64,000 nucleotides of DNA, from IMG/VR virus record IMGVR_UViG_3300037826_000058, positions 1 to 64,000 of that record; one strand, given 5' to 3'. The stretch comes from a virus. The notes beneath the pieces are model-generated. The model was not told the origin of the DNA. It did not search any database and worked only from the letters and a program-made list of their open reading frames with translations. Below are positions 25,315 through 46,470 of the stretch, one piece after another; position 1 is the stretch's first letter; the number at the start of each line of letters is the position of its first letter. Position numbers and translations under genes: made by a program.

Positions 25315-25343
25315 TTGACAATTTTACTTTGTTGGTGTACAAT
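25315..25343 (+). promoter_or_regulatory. Rightward promoter, TTGACAATTTTACTT family
   Basis: TTGACA (25315-25320), 17 bp, TACAAT (25338-25343). The following leader (AATTGGTTGGG..., AAGGAGGGT) repeats that of the 24620 promoter. Confidence 0.8.
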
Positions 25344-25377
25344 AGAATTGGTTGGGAAAAGTTTAAGGAGGGTTGAA

Positions 25378-25965
25378 ATGAGTGAAATCAAGGACTTGAA
25401 AGCAAAAGCAGAATGCGCTAAGGACACCTTAATCAGCATTCGCAAGGAGTCCGAACAGAAGCTGATGGATGCGGCAGCGATATTTGCTTCTGTTAAAGAA
25501 CAGAAGTTATACAAAGCGTGGGGCGACGGCTTCACGTTTAAGGATTTCTGCGAAATGACCGGGTGGTCACGCCAGCACGTCTATCGCATTATACGCATCT
25601 ACGCAAACGAGACCACCCGCGAAAATTTCGACCGTCTGGGCGTCTTGAAATCAGTTCGCATAGACCGAGCGAGTAGAAAGTTAGAAAGCATGGACGTTCC
25701 GGAAGACAAAGCCCAAGAAATCACTAACGAGCTGGTTGAATTCGCGGCGGAGAAGTCCGCGGTTCAATTAAAGGATAAGATTGAGCATGTGATAGCACAA
25801 ACGCAACCGGAACCGGAACCGGAACCGGAAGACAATGAGCTGAAGCGTCTATTGGAAAAGAAAAGCAGACTAGTGCAAAAGCGAGACCGGTTGCAAAACG
25901 AATTGGCAAGGTTGCAAGCAGACATCGCGCAGATTTCGCAGGACATTGACGCTCTTACCGAGTAG
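25378..25965 (+). CDS. HTH protein with coiled coil (DUF3102/KfrA-like layout)
   Basis: 195 residues from ATG 25378 (AAGGAGG upstream; an earlier in-frame TTG lies inside the promoter). Helical N-terminus; an HTH at about 52-75 (FKDFCEMTGWSRQHVYRIIR); a PEPEPEPED spacer encoded by CCGGAA repeats; then a C-terminal coiled coil of about 50 residues. Plasmid and phage proteins of this layout bind palindromic operators as regulators or partition factors. It is the best local candidate to bind the 17-bp palindrome that starts 22 bp behind it (inference). Confidence 0.65.
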   Translation: MSEIKDLKAKAECAKDTLISIRKESEQKLMDAAAIFASVKEQKLYKAWGDGFTFKDFCEMTGWSRQHVYRIIRIYANETTRENFDRLGVLKSVRIDRASRKLESMDVPEDKAQEITNELVEFAAEKSAVQLKDKIEHVIAQTQPEPEPEPEDNELKRLLEKKSRLVQKRDRLQNELARLQADIAQISQDIDALTE

Positions 25966-26035: not shown

Positions 26036-27436
26036 ATGAAAGAACAGATTGTACTACCAACAGATCATTTCAAAAGACGAGTCAGAAATCAGTATAGCCA
26101 GCTAGACTTAGCTATCCCACGGGAGGTGATACAAAACTCCCACGACGCCGGTGCCAACCGGATTGAGTTTTGTTTTACAAACCATGGCTTTCACGCAACT
26201 GACAATGGCAACGGTATCAATGGCATTGAAAAGTTTAGGGAAGTCTATTTGACGCTGGGTGGTAGCGAGAAATCCGATGGAGCCATAGGCAGTTTTGGGG
26301 CGGCGAAAGAACTTCTTTCGCTGGCCTGGTCAAGATGGTATGTTAAAAGCCAAGGTTTCAAGGTGGAGGGTGAAGCCGCGGCGCCTCCCACCTCTTACGC
26401 TGGCGCCGATCATGGCGTTGAAACCGGTTTCGTGATAGGCGCGGAGGATGATACCCTTGACGGCCTAGAAATCCGGTATCAGCTTGAAAAGCTAGTCGGA
26501 TTGTCACGGTTGCCAGGGATTGACGTCTACTCCGGCTTCAAGAACGCCAAAGCCGAACGGGTGCCACAGGGGCGAACGTTACGCTCCAACCAGAAAGTAA
26601 AGGAATTCGAATTTGGCACCCTATACGTTCATAAGTCCAGCCCAGGGCCATTTGAGAAGCCGGGTCAATTATACATTCGAACGCGGGGCCTTTACACGTG
26701 CTCCGAGCACGTGGGGGGGGATTACGTTTGGTATCTGGTTTTAGACGCTCCCAGCACCGAGGTCTTGACGGAGAATCGGGATAGCTTGCGCTATACCGTC
26801 AAGCGAGAGGTGCAAAAGTGTGTCCAAGACCTTGACCGTGGGCATCAGACCGAGACTATGGGCAATCCCACCTTAAAAGTATACACTGAGAAAGGTTGGG
26901 CATCCGAATCCGACGGGCAGGGAGGGTGGGAAACCAAGGGGAGCGACGGCCAACTTTTAGACGCTTCCCACGGTGAAAGCTATCATCGTTATTGGCGAAA
27001 GCCGTTCGCTATAGCGAATGATACCGGAAAGGATATATCATTGACCACGGCGTCCGGAAACCCGCGGCCCAGCATCACCAAGCCGCTAGAGGTTTACAGC
27101 CGGGCGCTGAAGATGATTGTAGCGGCGGCGGGCCTAGAGGATGAATACCTTGCGGGCCTTTACTACGGAGCTTCTGCTTGGGCGGTATTCGCGCCGTTCG
27201 CCGGCCACAGGGTGGTAGCGCTTTCACCGGAATTAATAGAACGTTCCGGCTATGAAATCGTAGATACCATCATTCATGAGCTGGCGCACAAGCGCTACAA
27301 ATACCATAACCAAGATTATGAATGCGCCAGAAGCGAGATTGCCAGCAAGATTGGCGATAGCATTATAGCAATCGTTTCGGAAGTCAACCGCTTACGAAAC
27401 GAACCGGCCCAGCGTGGTCGGTACTGGGAAAATTAA
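26036..27436 (+). CDS. GHKL-type ATPase fused to a zincin-like HExxH segment
   Basis: 466 residues from ATG 26036. The N-terminal 100 residues carry the Bergerat ATP-binding fold of MutL, Hsp90 and histidine kinases: REVIQNSHDAGA (29-40, N box), TDNGNGI (55-61, G1) and GAIGSFGAAKE (82-92, G2). No histidine-kinase phosphoacceptor domain is seen. Near the C-terminus IIHELAHKRYKYH holds HExxH at 414-418 with another His at 424, a zinc-protease pattern. An ATP-gated protease or a chaperone-like defence or anti-defence factor is possible. A joint ATPase-protease of this plan is unfamiliar to me. Confidence 0.75.
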   Translation: MKEQIVLPTDHFKRRVRNQYSQLDLAIPREVIQNSHDAGANRIEFCFTNHGFHATDNGNGINGIEKFREVYLTLGGSEKSDGAIGSFGAAKELLSLAWSRWYVKSQGFKVEGEAAAPPTSYAGADHGVETGFVIGAEDDTLDGLEIRYQLEKLVGLSRLPGIDVYSGFKNAKAERVPQGRTLRSNQKVKEFEFGTLYVHKSSPGPFEKPGQLYIRTRGLYTCSEHVGGDYVWYLVLDAPSTEVLTENRDSLRYTVKREVQKCVQDLDRGHQTETMGNPTLKVYTEKGWASESDGQGGWETKGSDGQLLDASHGESYHRYWRKPFAIANDTGKDISLTTASGNPRPSITKPLEVYSRALKMIVAAAGLEDEYLAGLYYGASAWAVFAPFAGHRVVALSPELIERSGYEIVDTIIHELAHKRYKYHNQDYECARSEIASKIGDSIIAIVSEVNRLRNEPAQRGRYWEN

Positions 27437-27447
27437 GAGGGTTTTAA

Positions 27448-27476
27448 GAGACAAGTTTACCTTGCCCGGCTATAAT
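27448..27476 (+). promoter_or_regulatory. Promoter, GAGACA / TATAAT
   Basis: GAGACA (27448-27453), 17 bp, TATAAT (27471-27476). The promoter at 28479 has the same GAGACA -35 and TTTTAA preceding context. It leads into a leader of about 230 nt. Confidence 0.65.
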
Positions 27477-27523
27477 AGAGATAGTCGGGCAAGGTTTTGA
27501 ACGGGCATAGGTGACGGGGGGAA

Positions 27524-27636
27524 TGGCGGCAGCCCAGCCCAAAAGACCGCCAGCGTGGGGGGCCATAGTCGGGAAAGCGCTTTGGAAAGCGGCCTTGACT
27601 CGGTGTCCGGCGCGGGTTCAAATCCCAAGCCCTCCA
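27524..27636 (+). other. Structured leader with tRNA-like 3' half
   Basis: Between the promoter and the 27708 gene the leader contains the stem TGGCGG/CCGCCA (27524-27552). It then has 7-bp acceptor-like pairing (GGGGGGC 27557-27563 with GCCCTCC 27629-27635) next to a T-arm-like GGGTTCAAATCCC (27614-27626). D and anticodon arms do not fold properly and the T-stem has only 3 pairs, so this is not a functional tRNA gene. It may be a tRNA relic or mimic. Confidence 0.3.
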
Positions 27637-27656
27637 AATCTGAAACAAAACGCGGG

Positions 27657-27673
27657 TGTAACATGATGTTACA
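27657..27673. promoter_or_regulatory. Palindrome TGTAACATGATGTTACA (copy 3 of 7)
   Basis: Perfect 17-mer (19 bp with flanking G/C), 34 nt before the start at 27708. Confidence 0.8.
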
Positions 27674-28386: not shown

Positions 28387-28460
28387 GGGGCCTAAACCAG
28401 AGGTGGCTAGGCTTAAACGACGGTGACAATTCGCAAGGCGAATAACACCGCGCCCGATCT
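28387..28460 (+). repeat. 74-nt two-hairpin element, copy 1
   Basis: 67 of 74 positions match copy 2 (31077-31150). Hairpin A: GCCTA (28390-28394)/TAGGC (28408-28412) with inner CCA-GAGG-TGG. Hairpin B: CGGTG/CACCG (28421-28450) with inner ATTCGC-AAG-GCGAAT. It ends CCCGATCT. A C-G to T-A compensatory change in hairpin A between copies supports an RNA role. It lies at the end of one unit, 18 bp before the next promoter. Confidence 0.7.
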
Positions 28461-28478
28461 TTTCTAGGATGGTTTTAA

Positions 28479-28507
28479 GAGACATCTTTACCATCCTATG
28501 GTATAGT
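28479..28507 (+). promoter_or_regulatory. Promoter, GAGACA / TATAGT
   Basis: GAGACA (28479-28484), 17 bp, TATAGT (28502-28507); gene start at 28524. Confidence 0.65.
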
Positions 28508-29701: not shown

Positions 29702-29730
29702 GGCGGTGCTTACCCTAGCACCGCCGATCA
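29702..29730 (+). terminator. Hairpin followed by GATCA (GATC-type, copy 1)
   Basis: GGCGGTGCT-TACCCT-AGCACCGCC, 9-bp perfect stem, immediately followed by GATCA; no T-run. Probable end of the transcription unit. Confidence 0.55.
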
Positions 29731-30500: not shown

Positions 30501-30506
30501 ACAAAG

Positions 30507-30536
30507 GGCGGGGGGGGGGCAATCCCCCGCCGATCA
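30507..30536 (+). terminator. Hairpin followed by GATCA (GATC-type, copy 2)
   Basis: GGCGGGGG (30507-30514) pairs with CCCCCGCC (30524-30531); GATCA follows at once. Confidence 0.5.
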
Positions 30537-30583
30537 GCTGGGCAATAGCTCAGTGCGTTTGGGTAAACAAATAAAGGAGGAAT

Positions 30584-31069
30584 ATGATGAATTGCTATAC
30601 GGTTACAAAGGGTGGTGGCGTAAAAGAGGGAATTGCGGCCTTTAAGAACGCGGATGGGCACACCGTCCATATAGGGGAGCCGGGAAGAGGACGCCAGTTA
30701 ACCGTTGTTCCCTTGCCCCAGGGGACAAAGGCGTCCAACGAACGGGTTACCTTCATCCCGACCAGTGGAGAGAGTGAGGTTGTAGTCGCTATCCGCGACC
30801 AAAGCGGTTACCGAGGAGGTTGGGCGGCGGACTTTCCCGAAGAGGTGACCGTTATCGCTGAGGGATTCTGTGCTCAAGGGGCCGCCGGTCGGATGGGCGG
30901 CGGCCCGGAGTATCTTATCCGTGGGCCGGTGGGTAGCACATTCACTATCCGGCGAAAGGGGCGGTTGTATGGCGCACCCGCCGAGCTGAACGTGACGCTT
31001 GGAGCTCCCCCAAGCGTCACCGACGCAAAGGCCGCTGAAAGAAGTAGGGAGGCGGCTAGTCGGTTCTAG
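30584..31069 (+). CDS. Hypothetical beta-rich protein
   Basis: 161 residues. AAAGGAGGAAT precedes ATGATG at 30584. Gly-rich beta sandwich composition (TFIPTSGESEVVVAIRDQSG) without Cys pairs or enzyme motifs. Not recognised. Confidence 0.6.
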   Translation: MMNCYTVTKGGGVKEGIAAFKNADGHTVHIGEPGRGRQLTVVPLPQGTKASNERVTFIPTSGESEVVVAIRDQSGYRGGWAADFPEEVTVIAEGFCAQGAAGRMGGGPEYLIRGPVGSTFTIRRKGRLYGAPAELNVTLGAPPSVTDAKAAERSREAASRF

Positions 31070-31076
31070 ACTTTCT

Positions 31077-31150
31077 GGGGCCTAGGCTAGAGGTAGCTAG
31101 GCTTAAACGACGGTGACGGTTCGCAAAGCGAATAACACCGCGCCCGATCT
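31077..31150 (+). repeat. 74-nt two-hairpin element, copy 2
   Basis: Hairpin A GCCTA (31080-31084)/TAGGC (31098-31102) with inner CTA-GAGG-TAG, where copy 1 has CCA-GAGG-TGG. Hairpin B CGGTG/CACCG (31111-31140) with TTCGC-AAA-GCGAA. It ends CCCGATCT, 15 bp before a promoter, the same setting as copy 1. Confidence 0.7.
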
Positions 31151-31165
31151 CTAGGAAAGTTTTAG

Positions 31166-31194
31166 TTGACATATTAACCCTGTTGTGGTAGTAT
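31166..31194 (+). promoter_or_regulatory. Promoter of the structured leader
   Basis: TTGACA (31166-31171), 17 bp, TAGTAT (31189-31194), with TATAAT at 31192-31197. Transcription would start within a few bases of the leader helix. Confidence 0.7.
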
Positions 31195-31207
31195 AATAGT
31201 AGGACAT

Positions 31208-31387
31208 TAACAGCCAAACTGGGCGCTATCAGACACGGGTGAGCAGGTCTTATCAGCCTGCATCAAACGTGCCCGATGCTCACAAACGGCAAGGCGGCCA
31301 CCGCATAAGCGGGTGGCGGGCCTGATAAACCCGCCACAGGCTCAGTCCCTAGAGTCGGGTTGCTGATAGCGCCTAGTTTGGTTGTTA
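31208..31387 (+). ncRNA. Highly structured leader RNA closed by a 25-bp helix
   Basis: Bases 31208-31232 pair with 31363-31387 over 25 consecutive pairs (two G-U). Enclosed are GCAGG/CCTGC (31243-31260), GTGAGC/GCTCAC (about 31239-31282), GCCACC-GC/GC-GGGTGGC (31297-31316 with one bulge) and GGCGGG/CCCGCC (31315-31335). It begins about 7 nt after the promoter and ends 3 nt before palindrome copy 5, upstream of the 441-residue coiled-coil gene. It could be a cis-regulatory aptamer, a packaging or decoy RNA, or a stable sRNA; no known class recognised. Confidence 0.75.
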
Positions 31388-31390
31388 GTT

Positions 31391-31407
31391 TGTAACATGA
31401 TGTTACA
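31391..31407. promoter_or_regulatory. Palindrome TGTAACATGATGTTACA (copy 5 of 7)
   Basis: Perfect 17-mer between the structured leader and the start at 31425 (17 nt). Confidence 0.8.
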
Positions 31408-31424
31408 TCAAAAGGAAAGGAAAG

Positions 31425-32751: not shown

Positions 32752-32785
32752 TTGACAAACCGCCCAAGATGTGTTATACTTGGGC
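32752..32785 (+). promoter_or_regulatory. Promoter with inverted repeat over the -10
   Basis: TTGACA (32752-32757), 17 bp, TATACT (32775-32780). GCCCAAG (32762-32768) and CTTGGGC (32779-32785) flank the -10, an operator-like layout. Confidence 0.7.
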
Positions 32786-34583: not shown

Positions 34584-34592
34584 TAGCAACCG

Positions 34593-34615
34593 GCCCACCT
34601 TCGGGTGGGCGATCA
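34593..34615 (+). terminator. UUCG-loop hairpin followed by GATCA (GATC-type, copy 3)
   Basis: GCCCACC-TTCG-GGTGGGC, a very stable UUCG tetraloop hairpin, directly followed by GATCA, 5 bp before palindrome copy 6. Confidence 0.55.
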
Positions 34616-40912: not shown

Positions 40913-43783
40913 ATGAATGAAAAATCGTTACTGCAACAACGCTATCTTCAGCCTGGCGAGGAGACCTTCGCTGATCTGGCACGAAGGGTTGCTGACTGGG
41001 TTGAAATCAAAGAGGTCTATGAAGCCATAAAAAGCAAGTGTTTTATCCCCTCTCGGATGCCCTACATGGGCACCGAGTTTCCTTTTTCCAGTAGCTGTTT
41101 CGTCCTCGGCCCCATTGAGGACGATTTGGCGTCCATTATGAATACGCTGAGGGACGCGACGCTGGTGCAGAAGATGGGCGGGGGCTGTATTGGTGGTGAG
41201 AGTGTTGTTATCACCGACCAAGGCCCTATGCCAATAAAGCAGCTAGTAGCTAGGAAAGACCCTGATATTAAAGTTCTTTCCTACAACCCAGACAGCAAGA
41301 CCATGGAGTATTCCACGGTGACCAAGTGGCACACTGTGGACACAGAACCGAAACGAGTTTACAAAATTAACTTTTCTCATGGTAATGGGCATGGTGTTCA
41401 GGCTAGCATGACGGTTAGTGATTGGCACCCGTTCTTTGTTTTTGACGGTGAACAAGTGATACAGGTAAGGGCTGATGACTTAGAGCCTGGCATGGTTATT
41501 ATAGGTTCGTCAGAGTATCGTCATGAATATGACGAGTGGGGTTGGGCTTTGGGTTACATAGCTGGTGATGGTGCTATTGACTACAGCAAAAAGGAAAAAT
41601 ACCCAAGAGTTAGAATATGTGACGACAGTGAGGAGGCTGTTAGTCGTGTTGCCAAGATCATGGGGGTTCCATATTCTCGGTCTAAGGATAAACGATTTCA
41701 GGTTGATATGTGGGAGTGTGCTAGCTACTCCGATGTGGCGGGTAGGATTAGAGACAGTTTTGGAGGATACAAGACTTGTTACGATAAATGTATCCCCGAA
41801 GAAGTTTGGAGCAGCTCACCGTCATGTCGGTTTTCATTCATAGTGGGGCACCTAGATGCAGACGGATGGTATAATGAGGGAAAGAGCCGCTTCCAAGCCT
41901 CGACTGTGAGTAAGAAACTTGCCTTTGGTTTAATGGCCTTGGCTGGAAGCCTCGGCATACGCACCAAGGTCAGGTTTAGAGAATCACGCCATGAAAACGA
42001 ACAGCCCATTTGGGAAGTACGATATATGACCACTCAATCTTTCATTGAATCTGTAATGGACTGCAGTGCTAAGTACAATGACATAAAACCTCCGTGTCAG
42101 GTAATGGGGTCGCTACAATTATCAATGACGTGGCGAAAGGGTTTGTCAAGCAACGGAATAGAACTAGGTACTCAAGCATGGCGTGCTCGAACCCCACTGC
42201 TGGGCAGAGAGCAATCGCTTATAAACTGGCTACAAAACGGGATTGCCACAAGGGACGTTGCTGGTGATATAATTGAGGCTTGCAACGAGCCTGAGCTGGC
42301 TCAGTCTGTGCGAGCATGTCAAATTGTCCATTCTGTGGAGCAAGAAGATGGTGACATCTTGTACGACTTAACTGTTCCCAGCAATCAAACATATCTTGCA
42401 TCTCCTCCAGGTACAGGGGCTTTTGTAGTGGTACATAACACTGGATACAGCTTCTCTAGGTTACGTCCAGAGGGTGATCTTATCCGAAAGAGCGGTGGAG
42501 AGGCGTCCGGCCCAGTCTCCTTTATGAGACTCTACCACGAGGCGATGACCGTGGTGAAGCGGGCTGGCAAGAAGCACGCCGCTCAAATGGGAATACTCAA
42601 TGTATCTCACCCTGACATCGTGAAATTTGTCAGGTGCAAGGAAGAAGAGGGTCGCCTTAGCACTTTCAATATCAGCGTGGCGGTCTCCGATGATTTTATG
42701 GAAGCTGTTCGCAATGATAGTGATTGGGACTTAACCTTTGGCGGGAAAGTATATGATACCATCCCCGCCAAGGAGCTATATCATTTGATCGCAGAGCACG
42801 CCTGGAGGAACGGTGAGCCGGGTGTGATATTCATAGACGAGATCAATCGCCAGAATCCATTCCCCGTGCCTATTGAGGCATGCAATGCGTGCGGAGAAAA
42901 GCCTCTGCCGTATAATTGCAGTTGCAACCTTGCATCAATAAACTTGTCCAAGTTTGTTGATGATAATGGTATCATAGACTGGAATGGAATAGAGGAACAC
43001 ACCCGCTTGGGTGTAAGATTCCTTGACGTTGCCATTGATAGGGCGTGGTGGCCCCTTGAGGAAGTAGAAAGAAACACCAAGAAGTATCGTAACATCGGCC
43101 TAGGAGTGATGGGCTGGGCCGATATGCTCATCAAGATGAGAATCCCCTACGACAGCGACACCGCTGTCGCCTTGGCATCCGGCTTGATGGCTTTCATCAA
43201 TGACGTAGCCCACGATGAAAGTCAGGGGCGTAACACCACCTTAACATCAATCGCCCCGACGGGAAGCATATCCATGCTTGCCGGTTGCTCCCCATCGATA
43301 GAACCCCTGTTCGGGTTGGTCACAAACAAACAGACCAATCTAGGTCTATCCCAAGAGATACATTCTGAGTTTAAGAAGCGTGCCGAGGAATTGGGCATTG
43401 CATCGGAGGCTTTGTGGGCCGATGTATCAGCCCAGCAATCTGTCCAACATTTAGACATACCTCAGGGCGACAAGGAAATTTTCAAAACCGCAATGGAAAT
43501 TCCTTGGGAGAGGCACCTTATGATGCAAGCCGCTTTTCAAGAAAGCGTTGATTCGGCGGTCTCCAAGACGATCAACTTGGAAAACTCGGCTACAATCCAA
43601 GACGTAAAGGACGCCATTATGTTGGCCGAAGCACTGGGGTGCAAGTCCTTAACGCTTTACAGAGATGGTAGCCGTAGTGAGCAGGTATACGTGCGCACCT
43701 GCCCCGATTGTGAGGCTGAACTTGTGTCAGAGTCGGGGTGCTGGTCGTGCCCTGATTGTGGTTATTCGCTCTGCAGCTTGTAA
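40913..43783 (+). CDS. nrdJ: Class II (B12-dependent) ribonucleotide reductase with intein
   Basis: 956 residues; 538 after intein removal. Extein motifs: SSSCFVLGPIED (first redox Cys, C62), GGG/TGYSFSRLRPEGD, NACGEKPL (Asn, thiyl Cys, Glu), SCNLASINL (second Cys), IAPTGSISMLAG and ENSATIQD. The C-terminus ends in a CPDC...CPDC zinc/redox tail. It lacks the ATP-cone and is short for NrdJ. It makes dNTPs by an adenosylcobalamin radical, needing no oxygen. Palindrome copy 7 overlaps its stop codon. An intrinsic terminator precedes the gene. No B12 riboswitch is seen. Confidence 0.88.
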   Translation: MNEKSLLQQRYLQPGEETFADLARRVADWVEIKEVYEAIKSKCFIPSRMPYMGTEFPFSSSCFVLGPIEDDLASIMNTLRDATLVQKMGGGCIGGESVVITDQGPMPIKQLVARKDPDIKVLSYNPDSKTMEYSTVTKWHTVDTEPKRVYKINFSHGNGHGVQASMTVSDWHPFFVFDGEQVIQVRADDLEPGMVIIGSSEYRHEYDEWGWALGYIAGDGAIDYSKKEKYPRVRICDDSEEAVSRVAKIMGVPYSRSKDKRFQVDMWECASYSDVAGRIRDSFGGYKTCYDKCIPEEVWSSSPSCRFSFIVGHLDADGWYNEGKSRFQASTVSKKLAFGLMALAGSLGIRTKVRFRESRHENEQPIWEVRYMTTQSFIESVMDCSAKYNDIKPPCQVMGSLQLSMTWRKGLSSNGIELGTQAWRARTPLLGREQSLINWLQNGIATRDVAGDIIEACNEPELAQSVRACQIVHSVEQEDGDILYDLTVPSNQTYLASPPGTGAFVVVHNTGYSFSRLRPEGDLIRKSGGEASGPVSFMRLYHEAMTVVKRAGKKHAAQMGILNVSHPDIVKFVRCKEEEGRLSTFNISVAVSDDFMEAVRNDSDWDLTFGGKVYDTIPAKELYHLIAEHAWRNGEPGVIFIDEINRQNPFPVPIEACNACGEKPLPYNCSCNLASINLSKFVDDNGIIDWNGIEEHTRLGVRFLDVAIDRAWWPLEEVERNTKKYRNIGLGVMGWADMLIKMRIPYDSDTAVALASGLMAFINDVAHDESQGRNTTLTSIAPTGSISMLAGCSPSIEPLFGLVTNKQTNLGLSQEIHSEFKKRAEELGIASEALWADVSAQQSVQHLDIPQGDKEIFKTAMEIPWERHLMMQAAFQESVDSAVSKTINLENSATIQDVKDAIMLAEALGCKSLTLYRDGSRSEQVYVRTCPDCEAELVSESGCWSCPDCGYSLCSL
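41186..42439 (+). other. Intein with LAGLIDADG homing endonuclease in nrdJ
   Basis: 418 residues, from Cys92 to Asn509 of the precursor, inserted between GGG and TGYSF of the RNR active-site region. Block A begins CIGGESVVI; the C-terminal splice block is FVVVHN followed by Thr as the +1 residue. Two LAGLIDADG-type helices, LGYIAGDGA and VGHLDADGW, indicate a full homing endonuclease. All splice residues are present, so it should self-excise and can invade intein-free nrdJ alleles. Confidence 0.9.
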
Positions 43784-46154: not shown

Positions 46155-46181
46155 TTAACTGCACGGTATTGAATTTTACGA

Positions 46182-46363
46182 ACCCCATATATGGGGTCAG
46201 GGCTTTCGACACCCCCATATGTGGGTTGCGAAGGAGTAATTAGATTGCAAATAAGTATGCTGTAATCTCAGTGCTGTTTTATACCCCCATATATGGGGGT
46301 ATAACAGGGTCGATACCCCTACATATAGGGGTTTAGGTCAAGTCTGTACTACGACGTAGTACA
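46182..46363. promoter_or_regulatory. Cluster of five palindromes upstream of the Rad52-like gene
   Basis: Four related sites built on CCCCATATATGGGG: a perfect 16-mer (46182-46197), an imperfect one centred on CATATG (46211-46226), a perfect 26-bp palindrome (46279-46304) and ACCCCTA-CATA-TAGGGGT (46315-46332). A fifth, unrelated 19-bp palindrome follows, TGTACTACG-A-CGTAGTACA (46345-46363). The 317-bp gap holds no gene. This is likely a multi-site operator or replication-initiator array. Confidence 0.65.
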
Positions 46364-46409
46364 ACCCGCGTTGTGAGAGAGACCTTCTGGTGGCTCCACT
46401 TGGTTTGAT

Positions 46410-46438
46410 TTGCAAGTTTGATGTTGTTATGATATAAT
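46410..46438 (+). promoter_or_regulatory. Promoter of the Rad52-like gene
   Basis: TTGCAA (46410-46415), 17 bp, TATAAT (46433-46438). The hairpin or operator ATCTA-TCGC-TAGAT (46441-46454) covers the expected transcription start. Confidence 0.7.
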
Positions 46439-46470
46439 GCATCTATCGCTAGATAAGTAAGGAGAAAAAA

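Follow-up and report, generated by a model that had tools for sequence, protein, structure and literature searches.

In the purine riboswitch fold, a closing helix is combined with two arms that carry kissing loops. The leader–trailer helices of ribosomal RNA, which span 25–40 bp (27 bp in the E. coli pre-23S), are the sites at which RNase III cuts structured RNAs free from a common transcript (PMC10250234), and PMC3997798 describes uninterrupted duplexes as both favoured and cleaved by this enzyme. Stem-loops at the 5′ terminus that stabilise mRNAs are established in works cited in PMC3997798. Described phage RNAs that invite comparison include the HK022 putRNA (PMC9378689), the phi29 prohead RNA (PMC6765105) and ROOL and GOLLD, which are phage-associated RNAs whose function is not established (PMC12286853).

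The window analysed here, a stretch of 64,000 nt, covers the initial 64 kb of an IMG/VR record of 119,094 bp, which belongs to a divergent tailed phage: the major head protein shares ~41% identity with its counterparts in Arthrobacter phages, the FtsK-like protein is 38–39% identical to Mycobacterium phage proteins and the terminase is weakly similar to known terminases. In the non-coding gap before a 441-codon gene of this phage lies a leader RNA domain of ~185 nt (31206–31389, + strand; Table 1), which is very probably a real, strongly structured RNA-level element.

Table 1. Features of the leader locus and positions of the associated palindrome.
Feature	Position	Strand	Details
Non-coding element upstream of promoter	31078..31165	+	Region (to 31190) 82% identical to 28410-28503
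Sigma-70-type promoter	31166..31197	+	TTGACA 31166-31171, 17 nt, TAGTAT 31189-31194 (or TATAAT 31192-31197)
Closing helix P1, 5′ strand	31206..31232	+	Folding and helix scan
Arm P2	31234..31271	+	CACG/CGUG, then UGAGCAGG/CCUGC-UCA, 1 bulge; pair probabilities 0.8-1.0
Loop L1 UCUUAUCAG	31248..31256	+	UUAUCAG (31250-31256) complementary to L2
Small hairpin P3	31301..31312	+	CCGC-AUAA-GCGG; pair probabilities 0.96-0.99
Arm P4	31313..31337	+	GUGGCGGG/CCCGCCAC; pair probabilities ~0.8-1.0
Loop L2 CCUGAUAAA	31321..31329	+	CUGAUAA (31322-31328) complementary to L1
Closing helix P1, 3′ strand	31363..31389	+	Folding and helix scan
Palindrome TGTAACATGATGTTACA	31391..31407	.	Starts 2 nt beyond P1; exact copies elsewhere
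Ribosome-binding site AAGGAAAGG	31412..31420	+	Predicted mostly unpaired within leader
Downstream gene, 441 aa	31425..32750	+	Coiled coil made mostly of long helices; searches gave no relative
Palindrome copies, window	10698, 25988, 27657, 29025, 31391, 34620, 43779
Palindrome copies, record	71241, 99467, 110324

A long helix closes the RNA domain

The original prediction for this DNA was of a stable, autonomous RNA domain closed by an uninterrupted 25-bp helix. That core helix is present, with arms TAACAGCCAAACTGGGCGCTATCAG and CTGATAGCGCCTAGTTTGGTTGTTA (31208–31387), and in fact reaches 27 bp when its base is lengthened by a U-G and an A-U pair, yielding a closing helix (P1) with 24 Watson-Crick pairs and 3 G·U wobbles. 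The fold is as stable as proposed, the 180 nt of 31208–31387 reaching an MFE of −98.4 kcal/mol in RNA folding, against a mean of −62.3 kcal/mol for 200 dinucleotide shuffles of the same domain, none of which was as stable (0/200; z = −8.05). Autonomy is only partly supported: no intrinsic terminator could be recognised beyond the helix, so that, barring processing or a block to transcription, the domain is synthesised as the 5′ portion of an mRNA. The internal hairpins that had also been proposed are recovered as P2, P3 and P4, with pair probabilities of ~0.8–1.0, the remaining inner pairs being uncertain.

In a scan of every uninterrupted helix with a span of up to 350 nt over the 119,094-bp record, P1 ranks first in length, followed by helices of 22–21 bp on the + strand (in the region of an 1856-aa ORF) and of 17 bp on the − strand; the longest helix in first-order Markov sequences of the same length (n = 10) is 16–18 bp. 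P1 runs uninterrupted beyond the ~17–20 bp that characterise helices of the leader–trailer type and joins both ends of the domain, and its formation by chance is very unlikely. All three of its wobbles are G-U pairs in RNA of the + strand and A-C mismatches in RNA of the − strand, a one-sidedness that agrees with the direction of the promoter in 3/3 cases and would arise by luck 1 time in 8. The domain is unranked in a local-fold scan of the whole record in 45-base steps since P1 never had both of its arms inside a single step, and the helix scan is therefore the fair comparison.

Two arms with complementary loops

Independent evidence for a selected fold, absent from the original prediction, is the complementarity between loops: P2 and P4 are each capped by a 9-nt loop, and the two loops contain a perfect 7-nt complement (UUAUCAG/CUGAUAA), with a predicted duplex energy of −6.6 kcal/mol. 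Loop shuffles give P = 0.0018 for the L1/L2 pair and P = 0.0033 for any pair among the loops considered, and a complement of this type occurs in 1 of 337 neighbouring hairpin pairs of the record, the − strand match in this count being the same element in reverse. The sequence complement suggests a kissing interaction between L1 and L2.

Additional pairings can be drawn within the domain. The inner end of P1 carries a near-repeat of the loop words (CUAUCAG/CUGAUAG), so that P1 could pair transiently with either loop, which we offer as a possibility read from the sequence rather than as a demonstrated switch. The 5′ strand of P4 can pair instead with GCCAC at 31297–31301 (P3alt), an arrangement that costs the full leader only 2.7 kcal/mol in stability; co-transcriptional prefix folds predict P3alt first and then P3 and P4, that is, a strand exchange.

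Promoter, downstream gene and genomic setting

The promoter that had been proposed just upstream of the domain has consensus support in both of its elements (Table 1). Its predicted transcription start is at 31201–31204, and P1 begins 2–5 nt later. Two sister promoters of near-identical sequence (25315 and 28022) form a small family with it; they lack the insert, and the RNA domain is single-copy in the record. No plausible gene was found in the gap 31070–31424 (the previous gene ends at 31069), nor was a terminator-like site found between the domain and the 441-codon gene. The ribosome-binding site is mostly unpaired in the predicted leader, which argues that the leader is not simply a translation block. 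For the 441-aa protein, we found no relative in IMG/VR, in phages or in 84,980 genomes, and no usable family or structure match. Downstream of the leader, a + strand gene block runs from 31425 to ~48511, with a further strong promoter at 32752–32780, 1.3 kb past the start codon of the 441-codon gene.

The region ahead of the promoter belongs to a duplicated ~90-bp non-coding element (28410–28503 and 31078–31190) with hairpins that end in CGCCCGATCT, each copy standing before a promoter; similar GC hairpins followed by GATC are found at the ends of other genes (29702–29730, 30505–30538 and 34588–34615). A second type of promoter (TTTTAAGAGACA...TATAAT) is present in 27448–27660 and at 28479. 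The leader in 27448–27660 ends in a stretch that resembles a tRNA T-arm (GCGGGTTCAAATCCC), in which ARAGORN and Rfam both report no tRNA.

Elsewhere, the record displays several further elements. A HEARO RNA (RF02033, 91.7 bits; 120–341, − strand) at the contig edge lies immediately beyond the stop codon of the ORF for the terminase large subunit (347–1993, − strand), as though a mobile HEARO had inserted at this gene. The ribonucleotide reductase large subunit (40913–43783) is split by an intein that contains a homing endonuclease of the LAGLIDADG type, and a long intergenic gap at 46155–46470 features a perfect 26-bp palindrome (46279–46304) and local folding that is strong relative to the rest of the record. 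A − strand island at 94.5–104.7 kb of the record encodes more than 30 phage tRNAs covering most amino acids, and a TnpB/IS605-type gene lies at ~87.2–88.4 kb.

A repeated palindrome next to the domain

The palindrome at 31391–31407, copy 5 in the original prediction, is the fifth of 7 exact copies in the window. Across the record, this 17-bp sequence (TGTAACATSATGTTACA) has 10 exact copies, most of which lie within ~50 nt upstream of a start codon and several far from any promoter; one copy is inside a tRNA cluster and one follows a convergent terminator. The centre base is G or C regardless of direction. Several other IMG/VR phages carry identical or paired copies (~72 bp apart), and distant phages with a homolog of the ATPase gene (26036–27436) also hold one exact copy. 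This placement and the indifferent centre base would be expected of an operator or stoperator-like site in DNA and not of a piece of this RNA. Because the palindrome also stands upstream of many genes without such a leader, it is most likely a separate element, at which a protein would bind.

A two-gene unit in the window encodes an HTH protein (25315–25965) and then a HATPase-like protein (26036–27436) with a C-terminal HELAH metallopeptidase-like motif; the same gene order is found in two distant phages (~31–36% identity), both of which have the palindrome. A leader of similar length before the third palindrome copy (27481–27672) was considered as a second RNA of this kind and rejected, its fold being not unusually stable (z = −0.5).

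Searches for relatives

The original prediction recognised no known riboswitch or phage RNA class, and Rfam 15 likewise gave no gathering-level match at the locus, just two chance-level matches appearing at E up to 5. No RNA homolog was found by blastn in phages and plasmids, by pattern searches of IMG/VR with the ends of P1 and with both loops, or with a single-sequence covariance model run on 39 loci and 16 whole records. The sole match to the P1 pattern in IMG/VR is attributable to chance, since it is apparently coding sequence and has no fold (z ~ 0). Relatives identified through the capsid protein are a near-identical strain or ~60% relatives, and are fragments without a counterpart of the early region. 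A search with the ATPase gene (26 kb) returned only two distant phages, both without the RNA. Long-span helices (loops of at least 60 nt) in relatives reach at most 18 bp. With no homolog found in these searches, the element must be of very recent origin, evolve very fast or belong to a group of phages that is poorly sampled.

A retron ncRNA (msr-msd) is ruled out, because the 119-kb record has no reverse transcriptase (no PF00078 match, with positive controls detected). The domain is claimed by no known family and is an orphan among structured phage leader RNAs; we do not regard it as a categorically new system, since nothing yet shows what the domain does.

A proposed processed leader and the alternatives

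We tentatively favour a reading in which the domain is a structured 5′ leader of the 441-codon mRNA and P1, by analogy, acts like an rRNA leader–trailer helix that is processed by RNase III. We infer this because a promoter, an end-to-end stem, complementary loops and an open ribosome-binding site occur together, with no terminator-like site found after the domain. The promoter would fire into the domain, and the transcript would constitute the 5′ leader of the 441-codon mRNA, the long P1 stem masking its 5′ end against end-dependent decay. The domain would fold and L1 and L2 would then kiss, a contact, probably intramolecular, that would keep the core compact. Host RNase III, the presence of which we assume, would cut within P1, releasing the kissing-loop core (~130–150 nt) as a stable RNA and leaving a trimmed 441-codon mRNA. 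RNase III needs only a duplex, and the elaborate core and its kissing loops are thus unexplained by processing. If real, this would be an orphan phage RNA of unusually clean architecture (a long closing stem, two arms and 7-bp kissing loops), whose small size would let it be probed chemically and studied structurally in a direct way, and a case of a phage using an rRNA-like processing stem so that a single promoter supplies both an RNA and an mRNA.

The leader might instead act during transcription. As a cis-acting leader like HK022 putRNA or the EAR-type leaders, the nascent RNA, beside RNA polymerase or together with a phage or host protein, would override terminators or pauses downstream (31425–~48511). 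A folded RNA a few bases after a strong promoter and before a long same-strand gene block has a parallel in putL (PMC9378689), and the ordered strand exchange from P3alt to P3 and P4 in the prefix folds is consistent with such a role. We nevertheless consider it unlikely: putRNA is ~70 nt with two stem-loops and without a closing helix (PMC9378689), a size and architecture that the domain does not share, P1 closes only after ~185 nt and the next strong promoter follows merely 1.3 kb after the start codon.

Mutually exclusive hairpins just 2.7 kcal/mol apart, along with kissing loops on two arms, would be compatible with a ligand- or protein-responsive leader (riboswitch-like or autoregulatory) of the 441-aa gene that switches between P4 and P3alt. 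Such a leader is quite unlikely, as there is no Rfam riboswitch match at E up to 5, the ribosome-binding site is not sequestered, no terminator hairpin is linked to the switch and the 27-bp P1 is too stable for a switching helix.

Very doubtful, in our estimate, is a new compact class of phage RNA, in which the mRNA leader would be cut out via the 27-bp stem and its loops would then kiss to form dimers, rings or chains, or the core would bind a phage or host protein during takeover. Self-assembly as such, in which the complementary loops of different molecules would pair, as in the rings of phi29 pRNA or the cages of ROOL and GOLLD, and the RNA would serve as a particle or scaffold, is improbable. 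The domain does have two arms with complementary loops (7 nt in L1/L2) on a long end-to-end helix, approximating the architecture of pRNA (PMC6765105), and phage ROOL and GOLLD assemble partly via kissing loops (PMC12286853). However, L1 and L2 can equally pair inside one molecule, the domain is made as part of an mRNA, and its size and sequence are unlike those of pRNA, ROOL and GOLLD; Rfam gives no match at the locus, and the ROOL/GOLLD profile and length (600–800 nt) are both lacking.

We give even less weight to a MITE-like remnant of a mobile element that would have inserted between the promoter and the gene, with the 25-bp arms as its terminal inverted repeats. These repeats are 92% identical, and the insert sits in just one leader of the record and is absent at the sister promoters, but there is no second copy in the record or in the phage, plasmid and IMG/VR searches, the flanks lack a target-site duplication, and neither loop complementarity nor one-sided wobbles are expected of such a remnant. 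The slimmest prospect is a roadblock, in which a repressor on the palindrome that begins 2 nt after P1 would halt polymerase to leave a discrete ~180-nt RNA, like mycobacteriophage stoperators: the 10 exact copies, mostly just upstream of start codons and several far from promoters, would suit such a protein, but the palindrome precedes many genes without such an RNA, no repressor is identified and in mycobacteriophages the stoperator has an asymmetric sequence (PMC9283540).

Comparison with known systems

Like ROOL, GOLLD and OLE, the domain is strongly structured with candidate kissing loops (PMC12286853), but it is 4–5 times smaller, lies away from the tRNA island (94–105 kb here) and has no Rfam match. 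The phi29 prohead RNA is closer in size (174 nt versus ~185 nt) and also bears complementary-loop arms on an end-to-end helix (PMC6765105); it has no detectable relation to the domain and comes from another type of phage, and the RNA described here is made with an mRNA, its oligomers being only hypothetical. HK022 putRNA is likewise the leader RNA of a phage, starts immediately downstream of an early promoter close to the front of a gene block and has two main stem-loops (PMC9378689); it differs in sequence, size and the closing helix, none being described for it. With the purine riboswitch fold, the domain shares a P1 helix plus two arms potentially joined through kissing loops, whereas its P1 and joining segments are much longer and Rfam yields no match. 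Compared with the rRNA leader–trailer helix, P1 encloses ~130 nt that are not rRNA and stands at the 5′ end of a phage mRNA, and its processing is proposed by analogy; what the two have in common is a long, near-perfect helix that joins both ends of a structured RNA within a longer transcript.
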